Below, piece by piece: positions 8,584 through 46,501 of a DNA stretch of 54,968 bases; position 1 is the first letter of the stretch, and each line of letters starts with the position of its first letter. The notes under the pieces are model-generated. The model saw only the letters and a program-made list of their open reading frames with translations. It was not told the origin of the DNA and made no database searches. Where the stretch lies: contig JAIDPF010000042.1 of assembly GCA_029062895.1 (NCBI GenBank), positions 1-54,968 of the forward strand. The letters are read 5' to 3'. Source of the DNA: Lachnospiraceae bacterium. GTDB taxonomy: Bacteria > Bacillota > Clostridia > Lachnospirales > Lachnospiraceae. The position numbers and the translations under genes are program-made.

Positions 8584-9675
8584 ATGTTTCAGAGGAAAGA
8601 AAAAGAAATCCGGCAGCAGACGAGAGGAGCAGTCAGGAAGTTACTTGACTTTTTGTTCTGTGCGGTGTTGTTTGTGATTTTGAACGGCTGTAAGGATGAT
8701 ACGGAGATCGTGCTTACTACGGGATTTTATGAAAATGAAGTGTTTCGTATCGAGGGGATGAGTTGCTACTCACCGGAGGTCATGATCTATCTGACCAATA
8801 TTCGGAATCAGTATGAAGATGTCTTTGGGGAAGAGATCTTCACGCAGAGCATTGACGGGATTAGCATTGAAGAAAGTATTAAGCAGACAGTGTTAGCAAG
8901 GATTGCTAAGATTAAAATGATGAATCTGATGGCAGAATATTATGAGATCACTCTGGATGAACGGGAACTGGAGCTGGCAGAAAACGCGGCGGAGGAATAT
9001 TATCAGTCGCTAAGCGCAGAAGAGATTGCCTCTATGGATGGGGCGACGCAGGAAACAGTGCTGCAGCTTTACGAAGAATATGCTCTTGCCAATAAGGTAT
9101 ATCAGTATCTTGTGCAGGGGGTGAATCAGGAGATCAGCGATGATGAGGCGCGGACAGTGACTGTGTGGCAGATCTTTCTTTCGACCACATACGACAGGGA
9201 AAACGGTGAACGGGCTGATGTTTCAGCGGTGGAGCGGGAGGCGATCTATGAGCAGGCGGAAAGTATCTGCGGACGGATCGCGGAAGGAGAGGATTTTGCT
9301 GTATTGGCATCGGAATATAGTGATGTCGAGGAATTGGTGGCATATTACCGCAAAGGGGAACAGGAGGCGCCTTTGGTGGAGGCGGTCTTTCAACTGGCAG
9401 AGGATGAAGTCAGCGGGATCATAGAAGGAGAACAGGGATATTATATCTTCCGATGTATCAGTACCTATGATATGGAGCAGACGGAGGCAAGAAAACGGGA
9501 GATTGTAAAAGAGCGGCAGCAGGAAATGTTTGGACAGATCTACACGATGTTTATTGGAGACAAACGCTGTTATCTGAACGAAGAACTGTGGAACGCTATT
9601 AGCTTTACGGAACAGGCGTCCGGCGCAACCTCCAATTTCTTTGATATTTACGCAAAATATTTTTCTGCTAATTAA
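8584..9675 (+). CDS. PrsA/SurA-like peptidyl-prolyl isomerase, probable lipoprotein
   Basis: A 363-residue extracytoplasmic foldase. A hydrophobic segment (about residues 20-38) ends in LNGCKDD, a slightly atypical lipobox with the cysteine near residue 38. The SurA-like N-terminal helical chaperone region follows (IEESIKQTVLARIAKIKMMNLMA and on). A parvulin-like domain spans about 195-300 (VWQIFLST, then EDFAVLASEYSD, VFQLAEDEVSGIIEGEQGYYIFRC). Such proteins help secreted proteins fold outside the membrane. It begins after TTTAGGAGAAC and probably shares the pepT transcript. The parvulin domain is recognisable but degenerate, so isomerase activity is less sure than the chaperone role. Confidence 0.82.
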   Translation: MFQRKEKEIRQQTRGAVRKLLDFLFCAVLFVILNGCKDDTEIVLTTGFYENEVFRIEGMSCYSPEVMIYLTNIRNQYEDVFGEEIFTQSIDGISIEESIKQTVLARIAKIKMMNLMAEYYEITLDERELELAENAAEEYYQSLSAEEIASMDGATQETVLQLYEEYALANKVYQYLVQGVNQEISDDEARTVTVWQIFLSTTYDRENGERADVSAVEREAIYEQAESICGRIAEGEDFAVLASEYSDVEELVAYYRKGEQEAPLVEAVFQLAEDEVSGIIEGEQGYYIFRCISTYDMEQTEARKREIVKERQQEMFGQIYTMFIGDKRCYLNEELWNAISFTEQASGATSNFFDIYAKYFSAN

Positions 9676-9684
9676 GTGTATAAG

Positions 9685-9740
9685 CTGGTATATTAACCGG
9701 CACATTAACTGGTATATTAACTGGTATATTAACTGGTAAA
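9685..9740 (+). repeat. 12-bp tandem repeat, about 4.5 copies
   Basis: Units starting at 9685, 9697, 9709, 9721 and 9733 follow the pattern CTGGTATATTAA. The second unit has three changes and the last is partial. The array begins 9 bases after the foldase stop codon and runs directly into a large palindrome. Confidence 0.85.
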
Positions 9741-9743
9741 TGA

Positions 9744-9842
9744 GGTTTACATAACCTGCAGTTTCATAATTAACATTCCAAAAATGATTTCATTTATGAT
9801 GTTTTTGGAATGTTAATTATGAAACAAAGAGTTATGTAAACC
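9744..9842. repeat. Large perfect palindrome (12 + 24 bp arms) upstream of htpG
   Basis: The outer arms GGTTTACATAAC (9744-9755) and GTTATGTAAACC (9831-9842) are perfectly complementary. After a symmetrical 5-base mismatch (CTGCA/AAAGA), 24-base inner arms (9761-9784 and 9802-9825) pair perfectly around a 17-base loop. No T-run follows. This 36-bp stem is larger than a normal terminator. It may be a MITE-like element or a strong RNA structure isolating htpG from upstream transcription. Confidence 0.85.
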
Positions 9843-9860
9843 GTACAAGATAGTATATTG

Positions 9861-9887
9861 CTAGCACTCAATCAAAACGAGTGCTAA
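9861..9887. promoter_or_regulatory. CIRCE operator (HrcA binding site) of htpG
   Basis: CTAGCACTC-N9-GAGTGCTAA matches the CIRCE consensus TTAGCACTC-N9-GAGTGCTAA with one substitution. HrcA represses chaperone genes through this element and is released on heat shock. It lies 85 bases upstream of the htpG start, just before a candidate -35 box. htpG is therefore predicted to be in the HrcA regulon here. Confidence 0.95.
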
Positions 9888-9894
9888 TTTTTCC

Positions 9895-9923
9895 TTGACA
9901 TTTACTTCCGGCAGTATTAAACT
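9895..9923 (+). promoter_or_regulatory. Candidate htpG promoter
   Basis: TTGACA (9895-9900) is a perfect -35. The best -10 at 17 bases is TAAACT (9918-9923), a 4 of 6 match. The CIRCE site lies 7 bases upstream of the -35, so HrcA would bind at the edge of the polymerase footprint. Confidence 0.6.
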
Positions 9924-9971
9924 ATGTTTTATGTAAGATAAAATATTTCAGAAGGAAGGACGTGACGTAAG

Positions 9972-12275
9972 ATGTCAGCAAAGCAAGGAAGTTTATCTAT
10001 TAATAGCGAAAACATATTCCCGATCATTAAGAAGTGGCTGTATTCCGACCACGATATCTTTTTCCGGGAGTTGATCAGCAACGGCTGTGACGCGATTACC
10101 AAATTAAGGAAGCTGGATATGATGGGAGAGTATTCCCTGCCTGCAGATTACAAGCCGAAGGTGGAAGTGATCGTCAGTCCGGAGAAAAAGACGATCCGGT
10201 TTATTGATAACAGCGAAAACATATTCCCGATCATTAAGAAGTGGCTGTATTCCGACCACGATATCTTTTTCCGGGAGTTGATCAGCAACGGCTGTGACGC
10301 GATTACCAAATTAAGGAAGCTGGATATGATGGGAGAGTATTCCCTGCCTGCAGATTACAAGCCGAAGGTGGAAGTGATCGTCAGTCCGGAGAAAAAGACG
10401 ATCCGGTTTATTGATAACGGTCTTGGCATGACAGCGGACGAAGTTGAGGAATACATCAATCAGATCGCATTTTCCGGCGCTACGGATTTTATTGAGAAAT
10501 ATAAGGACAAGGCCAATGAAGATCAGATCATCGGTCATTTCGGACTGGGATTTTATTCCGCGTTTATGGTGGCGGATGAGGTGCAGATCGACACATTATC
10601 TTATAAAGAAGGCGCAAAAGCAGTCCATTGGGCATGTGACGGCGGGACGGAATATTCTATGGAAGACGGCAGCAGGTCAGAGGTTGGTACGGAGATTACG
10701 CTGTTTGTGAACGAGGACTGCCTGAAATTTGCTAATAAATATGAGGCGGATTCCGTTCTGAAGAAATATTGTTCATTCATGCCGTATGAGATCTATCTGA
10801 GTCAGGAAGGCGAGGAATTGACGCAGATGATCGATCCGGAGGAAAAACTGGATACGGATATCGTGATTGAAACAGTAAAGCAGGAGGCAAAGGAAGGGGA
10901 AGACCCGAAGGAACGTTTAAAGATCAAAAAGCGTCCTGAGCCGATCAATGATACTACGCCGCTCTGGGCGAAGCATCCAAACGATTGTACTAAGGATGAG
11001 TATATCGCATTTTACCGGAAGGTATTTAATGATTACAAAGAGCCGTTATTCTGGATCCACCTGAATATGGATTATCCGTTTAATTTGAAGGGAATCTTAT
11101 ATTTCCCGAAGATCAATATGGAGTATGAATCCATCGAGGGCGTGATCAAACTCTATAACAATCAGGTGTTTATCGCGGATAATATCAAGGAGGTCATTCC
11201 TGAGTTTTTGATGCTCTTAAAAGGCGTGATTGACTGCCCGGATCTGCCGCTGAACGTATCCAGAAGCGCGCTGCAGAATGATGGGTTTGTCAAGAAGATT
11301 TCCGAATATATCAGCAAGAAGGTTGCCGATAAGCTGTCGGGCATGTGTAAGACGGAACGAGAAGAATATATTAAGTATTGGGATGATATCAGTCCATTCA
11401 TTAAGTTTGGCTGCTTAAAGGATGATAAGTTCTGTGAGAAGATGACAGACTATATCCTCTTTAAGAATCTGGCAGGCGAGTATCTGACATTGCCGGAGTG
11501 TCTGGAGGTTAAGCCGATCGACACGGAAGACGAAGAGAGTACTGCCGAGGACGGCAGCTCAGAGAGTGGAAAAGCTATGGATGCAGACGGCAATGCAGTC
11601 GAGGCGGAAATTGTAGATGCTGATGAAGAAGATGCCGAGGAGGATGCTGCGGCGGAAGAAAAGAAGGAGAAGACTGTTTATTATGTAACGGATGAGCAGC
11701 AGCAGAGCCAGTATATCAATATGTTCAAGAAGGCAAAGAAGGATGCCGTGATACTGACGCACAGCATTGACCAGCCGTTTGTGACACAGCTGGAGAGCAA
11801 GAATGAAGGCATCCGGTTTATGCGTATTGACGCTGACCTGACGGACGACCTGAAAGCCAAGACAAGCAAAAAGGCGCAGGAAGAACTGGACAAGCAGACA
11901 GAGGAACTTGAGAAGATCTTTAAAAAAGCCATCAAGAAGGATAATATCAAAGTGAAACTGGAGAAGCTGAAGAACAAGGATATCTCTTCCATGCTTACGG
12001 TTTCCGAGGAGAGTCGCAGGATGCAGGATATGATGAAGATGTATTCCATGCCCGGAATGGATATGGGGATGTTCGGCAAGGAAGGACAGACGCTGATCCT
12101 GAATGCGAATAATAAGCTGGTGCAGAAGATCTTAGAGGAAAAGGAGGGCGACAAGGTACAGCTTCTCTGTGAGCAGCTTTACGATCTGGCGCTTCTGCAG
12201 AATGCGCCGCTGGCACCGGAGGCGATGACGAAGTTTGTCGCGCGGAGCAATAAGATCATGATGATGCTGGCGTAG
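9972..12275 (+). CDS. htpG: Chaperone protein HtpG (Hsp90) with an internal 69-residue duplication
   Basis: Bacterial Hsp90, an ATP-dependent dimeric chaperone, 767 residues as written. Residues 12-80 (SENIFPIIKK to IRFIDN) are repeated exactly as 81-149, so the N-box helix with RELISNGCDA occurs twice. Only the second copy runs on into the DNGLGM nucleotide motif and the rest of the GHKL ATPase domain (GHFGLGFYSAFMVAD and so on). Without the extra copy the protein would be 698 residues. The middle domain (PLWAKHP, LNVSRSALQND) and C-terminal dimerisation domain are intact. A charged, Glu/Asp/Ala-rich insertion lies near 515-570. The ATG follows GAAGGAAGGACG, and a CIRCE operator lies upstream. 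The second copy alone could complete the ATPase fold. Confidence 0.95.
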   Translation: MSAKQGSLSINSENIFPIIKKWLYSDHDIFFRELISNGCDAITKLRKLDMMGEYSLPADYKPKVEVIVSPEKKTIRFIDNSENIFPIIKKWLYSDHDIFFRELISNGCDAITKLRKLDMMGEYSLPADYKPKVEVIVSPEKKTIRFIDNGLGMTADEVEEYINQIAFSGATDFIEKYKDKANEDQIIGHFGLGFYSAFMVADEVQIDTLSYKEGAKAVHWACDGGTEYSMEDGSRSEVGTEITLFVNEDCLKFANKYEADSVLKKYCSFMPYEIYLSQEGEELTQMIDPEEKLDTDIVIETVKQEAKEGEDPKERLKIKKRPEPINDTTPLWAKHPNDCTKDEYIAFYRKVFNDYKEPLFWIHLNMDYPFNLKGILYFPKINMEYESIEGVIKLYNNQVFIADNIKEVIPEFLMLLKGVIDCPDLPLNVSRSALQNDGFVKKISEYISKKVADKLSGMCKTEREEYIKYWDDISPFIKFGCLKDDKFCEKMTDYILFKNLAGEYLTLPECLEVKPIDTEDEESTAEDGSSESGKAMDADGNAVEAEIVDADEEDAEEDAAAEEKKEKTVYYVTDEQQQSQYINMFKKAKKDAVILTHSIDQPFVTQLESKNEGIRFMRIDADLTDDLKAKTSKKAQEELDKQTEELEKIFKKAIKKDNIKVKLEKLKNKDISSMLTVSEESRRMQDMMKMYSMPGMDMGMFGKEGQTLILNANNKLVQKILEEKEGDKVQLLCEQLYDLALLQNAPLAPEAMTKFVARSNKIMMMLA
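10005..10418 (+). repeat. Exact 207-bp tandem duplication inside htpG
   Basis: Bases 10005-10211 and 10212-10418 are identical as far as I can compare by eye. The unit is 207 bp (69 codons), so the reading frame is kept. The first copy is preceded by AAT and the second by AAC, both directly before AGCGAAAAC, a short homology that could have mediated the event. It is either a very recent duplication or an assembly artefact. Confidence 0.9.
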
Positions 12276-34909: not shown

Positions 34910-35227
34910 ATGAATAAACTTGAAGATGTAATCACAGCAGTAAAATTAAATGAGATCATGAAGAAGAAAGAGAAGGAAGAAGAGAAGAGCAATGCTTTAA
35001 AGACTTTCTTTCTTATCGTCGGTATTATTGCCGTTGTAGCTGCTGTTGTTTATGCTATCTATCGTTTTATGACGCCGGATTATCTGGAAGATTTTGATGA
35101 TGACTTCGACGACGATTTCGACGATGATTTTGATGATGATTTCTTTGATGACGAGGATCTTGTAGAGAATGAGAGCAAGGATTCTGTTAAGGTAGAGAAG
35201 GAAGAGGCTAAGGCTGAGGAGAAGTAA
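34910..35227 (+). CDS. Small membrane protein with acidic Asp-Phe repeat
   Basis: A 105-residue protein starting at ATG 34910 after AAAGGTGGG. The N-terminal cytosolic stretch is charged (KKKEKEEEKS). One helix follows (about 33-52, FFLIVGIIAVVAAVVYAIY). The C-terminus is extremely acidic with a DFDDD motif repeated four to five times (about 66-84) and ends in a Lys/Glu tail. The repeats are encoded by near-identical 12-base units, so slippage could change their number. Similar small proteins occur in Lachnospiraceae; the function is unknown. A strong terminator follows. Confidence 0.75.
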   Translation: MNKLEDVITAVKLNEIMKKKEKEEEKSNALKTFFLIVGIIAVVAAVVYAIYRFMTPDYLEDFDDDFDDDFDDDFDDDFFDDEDLVENESKDSVKVEKEEAKAEEK

Positions 35228-45478: not shown

Positions 45479-46501
45479 GTGAAATATTACAAAAGACTGA
45501 TAATTACAACGTTGTTTATTTGTCTATTTGTATTAGGCGGCTGTGGTGTCTTTCAAAATGACAATGAGGTATTGCAATCGGCGGATCCATCAGAAGGTGT
45601 TATAACAGAAAGTGTTATAACAGAAAGTGGCAATGAGATATTGCAATCATCGGATCTGTCTGAAGATGTTTTGATTGAGAGTGATAGTGATGAGGAAAGA
45701 ATAGAAAATAATGTCACTGAAGAATATAATGAAATCGATATGGGAGAAGAAAATAAAATCATAGCGGTATATAATGATGGGGAAATCATAGATATATATA
45801 ATGATGACGAAATCTTATCGGTCTCAGAGAATATGATGGTAGCAGAGGTAACTCCGGAGGAAATCTTACGTGGCAATCTTATTCTTTACAGTAGATATAA
45901 TATGGATGGGTGGGTGTTTGAATGGCTGATTTCTGATTATGATGGTGGGAACAATGTTTATTTGGATGAAGCGGTATTGGTGATCTCGCCCGAAAACGAT
46001 GCTCGTGATACACAAATAATTCATGTAACATCAGAGTGGATACAAACGTATTTGGGAGCAGATAAGTTTCAATATATTGATGTAAATTTTGACGATATTC
46101 CGGATCTTTTGATTATGGGTGGACGTTATGGCGCTCAATGTTTGGAGAGGTATTTTTGTTTTTTACAGACAGAGGACGGCTTTATGGAAGCTCCTAGTTT
46201 TGCGGAGATTTCAAACCCTAGATTAGATGCGGAGAATAGACTGATACTTAGTACATGGCGAAATTCGGCGGTTTCACATAGTTGGGCGGAATACAGCTGC
46301 CAGAATAATACCTATGTTATGGAGCGACACTTGTGTGAAGATTTGTTGGATTATGATAATAGGGTATGGATATGGTATGTAAATGATGAGGAAATCGGGA
46401 GAAGCGATGAGCTATCCGAGACAGAGATTGACGACCTTCTATATAATGAAAACAGTGAATGGAAATTATCGGATAGCAGGTGGGAGAATTTTTTTGAATA
46501 G
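45479..46501 (+). CDS. Lipoprotein with acidic repeats and a VCBS-like C-terminal domain
   Basis: A 340-residue lipoprotein precursor starting at GTG 45479 after AAAGGAGG. Lipobox LGGC (Cys22). An acidic linker with imperfect repeats follows (ILQSADPSEGVI/ILQSSDLSEDVL with ITES units). The C-terminal domain (from about 150) contains QYIDVNFDDIPDLLIMGG, typical of FG-GAP/VCBS-like repeats of secreted Firmicutes proteins, and ends in a Tyr/Trp-rich segment. No catalytic motif is seen. It is probably exposed at the cell surface. Repeat number in the linker could vary by slippage. Function unknown. Confidence 0.78.
   Translation: MKYYKRLIITTLFICLFVLGGCGVFQNDNEVLQSADPSEGVITESVITESGNEILQSSDLSEDVLIESDSDEERIENNVTEEYNEIDMGEENKIIAVYNDGEIIDIYNDDEILSVSENMMVAEVTPEEILRGNLILYSRYNMDGWVFEWLISDYDGGNNVYLDEAVLVISPENDARDTQIIHVTSEWIQTYLGADKFQYIDVNFDDIPDLLIMGGRYGAQCLERYFCFLQTEDGFMEAPSFAEISNPRLDAENRLILSTWRNSAVSHSWAEYSCQNNTYVMERHLCEDLLDYDNRVWIWYVNDEEIGRSDELSETEIDDLLYNENSEWKLSDSRWENFFE

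Follow-up and report, generated by a model that had tools for sequence, protein, structure and literature searches.

An exact in-frame 207-bp tandem duplication in the ATPase domain of HtpG that looks recent and is private to one Lachnospiraceae-type genome among those searched

Extra sequence near the first strand of the N-terminal domain of Hsp90 has been described in eukaryotes. The available part of PMC4381864 reports that the N-terminal strap of TRAP1 slows closure and ATPase activity, and that an Hsp90alpha variant has an N-terminal extension of 122 residues described as a negative regulator; both extensions are of unrelated sequence and precede the strand. Hsp90 is not essential in bacteria (PMC3708813, partial text). 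Duplication junctions have been studied in Salmonella, where duplications confirmed by experiment had junction microhomology of at least 11 bp, and cut-offs of 7–9 bp were needed to separate real junctions from simulated chimeric reads; chimeric reads give junctions of zero microhomology (PMC3411829, partial text). Perfect 101-bp tandem repeats placed head to tail in a gene on an assay plasmid delete without RecA in E. coli (PMC8378479, partial text).

In this study, we analysed a window (the whole stretch of DNA under study, 54,968 bases without N) from a draft genome of 115 contigs. In its assembled sequence, the htpG gene is one open reading frame without an internal stop and contains two identical direct repeats of 207 bp, head to tail and with 0 differences. 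The features are as follows.

9972 to 12275, + strand: htpG (bacterial Hsp90), 767 aa, identified from the open reading frame and from Pfam HSP90 and HATPase_c_3 matches; the only HtpG match in the genome.
10005 to 10211, + strand: repeat copy 1, 69 codons (residues 12–80), exact repeat.
10200 to 10222, + strand: junction between the copies (IDN/SENI), found by a degenerate pattern search in 1 of 35 genus genomes.
10212 to 10418, + strand: repeat copy 2, 69 codons (residues 81–149), exact repeat, running into DNGLGM.

The encoded protein shares family and domain order with E. coli HtpG (2ioq, 2iop, 2ior), to which it has sequence and fold matches, but differs from it in having 69 ATPase-domain residues twice in a row. 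As in TRAP1 and the Hsp90alpha variant, extra sequence lies near the first strand of Hsp90, and a change of closure and ATPase activity would be expected; unlike in those proteins, it duplicates the core of the protein itself, occurs in one bacterial genome and is read from sequence alone (comparison with the available part of PMC4381864).

The 207-bp unit comprises 69 codons and, as its first base opens codon 12, preserves the reading frame. Translated, it begins with SENIF, passes through RELISNGCDA and ends in IDN; it carries the ATPase-domain N-box. After copy 1 come Ser-Glu-Asn, after copy 2 the Gly of DNGLGM, a motif continuous with copy 2 only. In the relatives' numbering, the doubled stretch is residues 12–80, which take in helix 1, the N-box helix 2 (RELISN) and a hairpin ending in IDN; a single-copy model places helices at 15–26 and 29–50 and strands at 63–69 and 74–79, and the Glu33 positions of the unit and of yeast Hsc82 align. 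The earlier note had described an exact in-frame duplication of 207 bp with only the second copy joined to DNGLGM, and lengths of 698 and 767 residues for one and two copies; the first statement proved correct to the base, the second is borne out by the sequence, and the arithmetic agrees with four near relatives whose HtpG has 698 aa.

The 767-aa protein is still an Hsp90 despite its doubled residues. It matches the PF00183 (HSP90) profile with an E-value of 1.9e-58 and 199.2 bits against a cut-off of 24.4, and HATPase_c_3 is matched at residues 102–214, that is, on copy 2. The motifs RELISN, DNGLGM and GHFGLGFYS, which we take to be the N-box, DNGxGM and the glycine-rich lid end, are all contiguous from copy 2 onward, giving a complete GHKL ATPase domain. 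Residues 12–80 occur twice here, and each of the 58 relatives in alignment A2 (58 of 91 extracted) has them once. A structure model assigned the Hsp90 fold to copy 2 and rendered copy 1, at low model quality, as an insertion after the first strand and not before it; in the input alignment all relatives were placed on strand 1 and copy 2, which forces this placement and left the model unable to favour copy 1. Pfam and the model agree with the earlier attribution of the ATPase fold to copy 2, though the alignment favours that result in the model. The genome has a single HtpG match, and no second htpG that could compensate for a damaged one was found in it.

Upstream of htpG, two putative control elements were identified.

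9862 to 9886, + strand: CIRCE-type operator TAGCACTC-N9-GAGTGCTA (putative HrcA site), an exact pattern match with 0.03 expected by chance.
9895 to 9923, + strand: sigma-70-like putative promoter of htpG, TTGACA-17-TAAACT, recognised in the sequence.

Both arms of the first element are conserved in the relatives' loci L004 and L006. The operator and the promoter-like hexamers appear to be placed as is usual for a heat-shock gene.

This upstream region also contains repeats of its own. A 99-bp palindromic element at 9744–9842 has 41-nt arms that are 88% complementary and resembles a MITE- or REP-like family. It has 43 matches in the window's genome, some copies being counted through reverse-strand self-matches, with 40 of 75 first-look candidates scored, and it is one of at least about 40 copies in the genome. 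The nearest relatives had 42 (G008), 41 (G012), 14 (G016) and 29 (G022) matches and G005 had 1; none was found in five other genus members. The palindrome also lies upstream of htpG in G008, G012 and G022, and its arms change on both sides among the window, L004 and L006. G016 (locus L145) has a possible empty site relative to window positions 9676–9861, with 34 bases between matches to 9435–9675 and 9862–10210. Between the upstream gene and the palindrome, a 12-bp tandem repeat at 9685–9738 comprises 4.5 copies of CTGGTATATTAA, with bases that differ in L004 and L006. No link between the palindrome and the duplication was found.

The duplication is private to the window's genome within what was searched. 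A search of 35 genus genomes with the 69-aa unit gave two matches in the window's genome, one in 33 genomes and none in one, which is the comparison with close relatives that had been proposed earlier (one copy in 33 of 34 other genomes, no match in the remaining one). The degenerate junction pattern matched the window's own genome only. In the family search, 383 of 397 genomes had a match (three genomes, G000, G002 and G015, belong to both the family and the genus set), and the tandem arrangement occurred in the window's genome only; five genomes had two matches, and in the four besides G000 the second, with an E-value between 3e-7 and 6e-4, was weak and lay at another genomic location. With each genome counted once, 413 other genomes of the genus and family had a match and none of them a second tandem copy, so a recurrent switch left no sign in this set, which has one genome per species, includes a few partial or weak matches and three genus genomes with htpG split over contigs, and may hide some repeats, since assemblers tend to break or collapse them. 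Among 65 fetched open reading frames fitting the N-box pattern R[EQ][LI]ISN, which misses RELVSN variants, only that of the window had a doubled N-box; the others longer than 740 aa (741–776, stop to stop) had one each. Among the titles and abstract openings listed by searches of an open-licence PMC library, none described a duplication inside HtpG.

The event looks recent from codon comparisons. HtpG of the nearest relatives G008, G012, G022 and G016 is 96–99% identical over the aligned part. Relative to the G008 gene (L004), either copy has changes in 6 of 69 codons, five of them silent, whereas the copies do not differ from each other; the duplication is therefore younger than the split from that relative, unless gene conversion homogenises the copies. 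Downstream of the repeat, 83 of 618 codons differ from L004, 75 of them silently, and the surplus of silent changes suggests that htpG is under constraint in this group.

The breakpoints leave few traces of a mechanism. The flanking bases differ (T before copy 1 and C before copy 2; A after copy 1 and G after copy 2), so the unit cannot be shifted and the junction microhomology is 0 bp; reversible slippage on flanking repeats was rejected on this ground. Within five bases on either side, the breakpoints agree at 4 of 10 positions, a similarity reached by 40% of same-distance site pairs in the gene. GTTTAT is common to both neighbourhoods, 8 and 7 bases away and out of register with the observed junction, and an inverted repeat GATCGTC/GACGATC lies about 10 bp before the right breakpoint. 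Template switching induced by a hairpin was rejected, as 71 and 55 of 200 shuffles (for the two strands) fold at least as well, and no unusual folding was found near the breakpoints. Zero microhomology together with ordinary folding leaves either a rare homology-free event or a laboratory or assembly artefact.

We favour, with moderate confidence, a young illegitimate in-frame duplication in a dispensable chaperone, probably transient, by which HtpG is probably slowed or impaired. One recent illegitimate event, by template switching or microhomology-free end joining, would have duplicated the 207 bp, and the frame would have been kept by chance in the only htpG gene of this Lachnospiraceae-type bacterium. 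Expression should persist, given the intact promoter, operator and frame, an intact frame alone being no proof that the protein is made or stable. The N-domain would most likely fold with copy 2, leaving the 69 residues of copy 1 inserted after the native first strand (LSIN) and ahead of helix 1; a second candidate for the first-strand position, weakly modelled, is IRFIDN, with which copy 1 ends. N-terminal closure and ATPase activity would be slowed or impaired, and such a partial loss would be tolerated because bacterial Hsp90 is dispensable.

The same reading predicts the fate of the allele. The two-copy state should collapse to one copy (or expand), by analogy with the E. coli repeats, which are likewise perfect and head to tail in a gene and for which loss by template switching is predicted; that system used an assay plasmid, whereas the htpG repeat is natural (if real), 207 bp long, in frame and known from its assembled sequence only (comparison with the available part of PMC8378479). 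Breakpoints without homology give the one-copy state nothing to slip on, so it should not re-form the repeat, and the locus is at most a one-way fuse, not a switch. The earlier note had proposed that the repeat deletes and re-forms by RecA-independent slippage; deletion has its precedent in the 101-bp E. coli repeats (PMC8378479, partial text), and re-formation is not supported, given the 0 bp of microhomology. The allele would fall back to one copy through RecA-independent slippage without forming again, which would make it probably transient.

The main rival, as the earlier note had also held, is an artefact of assembly, library or strain mixture, in which a single copy is present in the source DNA, or the repeat occurs in a minority of cells, and a chimeric junction or the assembler's handling of a loop added the second copy. 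We consider this a serious possibility, though clearly the less probable one. The absence of microhomology is as expected of chimeric reads (PMC3411829, partial text), and no relative shows the repeat. The assembly is fragmented, and short N runs of 10, 10 and 100 bases occur in three of 20 sampled stretches of it; they resemble scaffold gaps and may indicate a short-read draft. The repeat, however, lies inside an N-free contig, and its frame is exactly kept, which chance alone gives in one of three cases. Short-read assemblers collapse or break such repeats more often than they create them, which we count against an artefact.

The repeat background points the same way. A 207-bp exact repeat is far beyond chance. 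Leaving aside L001–L003, which contain the htpG repeat itself, neither the window nor 141 fetched loci (853,905 bases) nor the 20 own-genome stretches (302,137 bases, about 10% of the assembly, two stretches being wholly N) contained another exact tandem repeat with a unit of at least 100 bp. A general tandem-duplication fault of the assembly was not seen in this sample, where only arrays with 36- and 54-bp units occurred, all in one stretch. As a control, 20 stretches from four relatives (252,133 bases, including wholly masked stretches) held units of 49 and 117 bp. The latter is a near-exact tandem repeat in a Pro/Gly-rich repeat protein of relative G019 (L179, 10188–10410), with 106 bases exact. 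The window also has short tandem repeats at 35090–35151, 45591–45629 and 45756–45814, with units of 12, 15 and 27 bp.

Two functional readings appear improbable. In the first, the second copy of half the ATPase core would set LSIN and IRFIDN in competition as first strands and add a decoy N-box. The result would be a brake, self-inhibitory or temperature-sensitive, which would be released one way if the repeat collapsed spontaneously, a genetic fuse on the chaperone; we regard this as a speculative proposal. Slightly less probable still is an adaptive regulatory extension, in which the extra half-domain would usefully slow closure or make it temperature-dependent, like some eukaryotic Hsp90 N-terminal extensions. 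The extra copy adjoins the same first strand as the closure-slowing TRAP1 strap and the Hsp90alpha extension described as a negative regulator; the strap, however, is absent from prokaryotes according to the available part of PMC4381864, the undiverged and private copies give no sign of selection on the allele, and the model tentatively puts the extra part after the first strand, not before it. Least probable, to the point of being very unlikely, is the regulated or bet-hedging phase switch between 698-aa and 767-aa forms by slippage that the earlier note had suggested: perfect 101-bp repeats do delete without RecA in E. coli (PMC8378479, partial text), but a phase-variable locus would be rebuilt by homology from the contracted state and vary in copy number among related genomes, whereas here the microhomology is 0 bp, the 413 other genomes (one per species) hold no second example, and the collapsed state is merely the normal gene.

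The duplication is thus most likely a private and young mutation whose class is ordinary and whose location is interesting. If it proves an artefact, it is a warning against inferring switches from single assemblies. If the repeat exists in living cells, it would be a natural test of the degree of N-terminal disturbance that an Hsp90 ATPase can bear, and of the frequency with which in-frame duplications formed without homology persist in a conserved domain.
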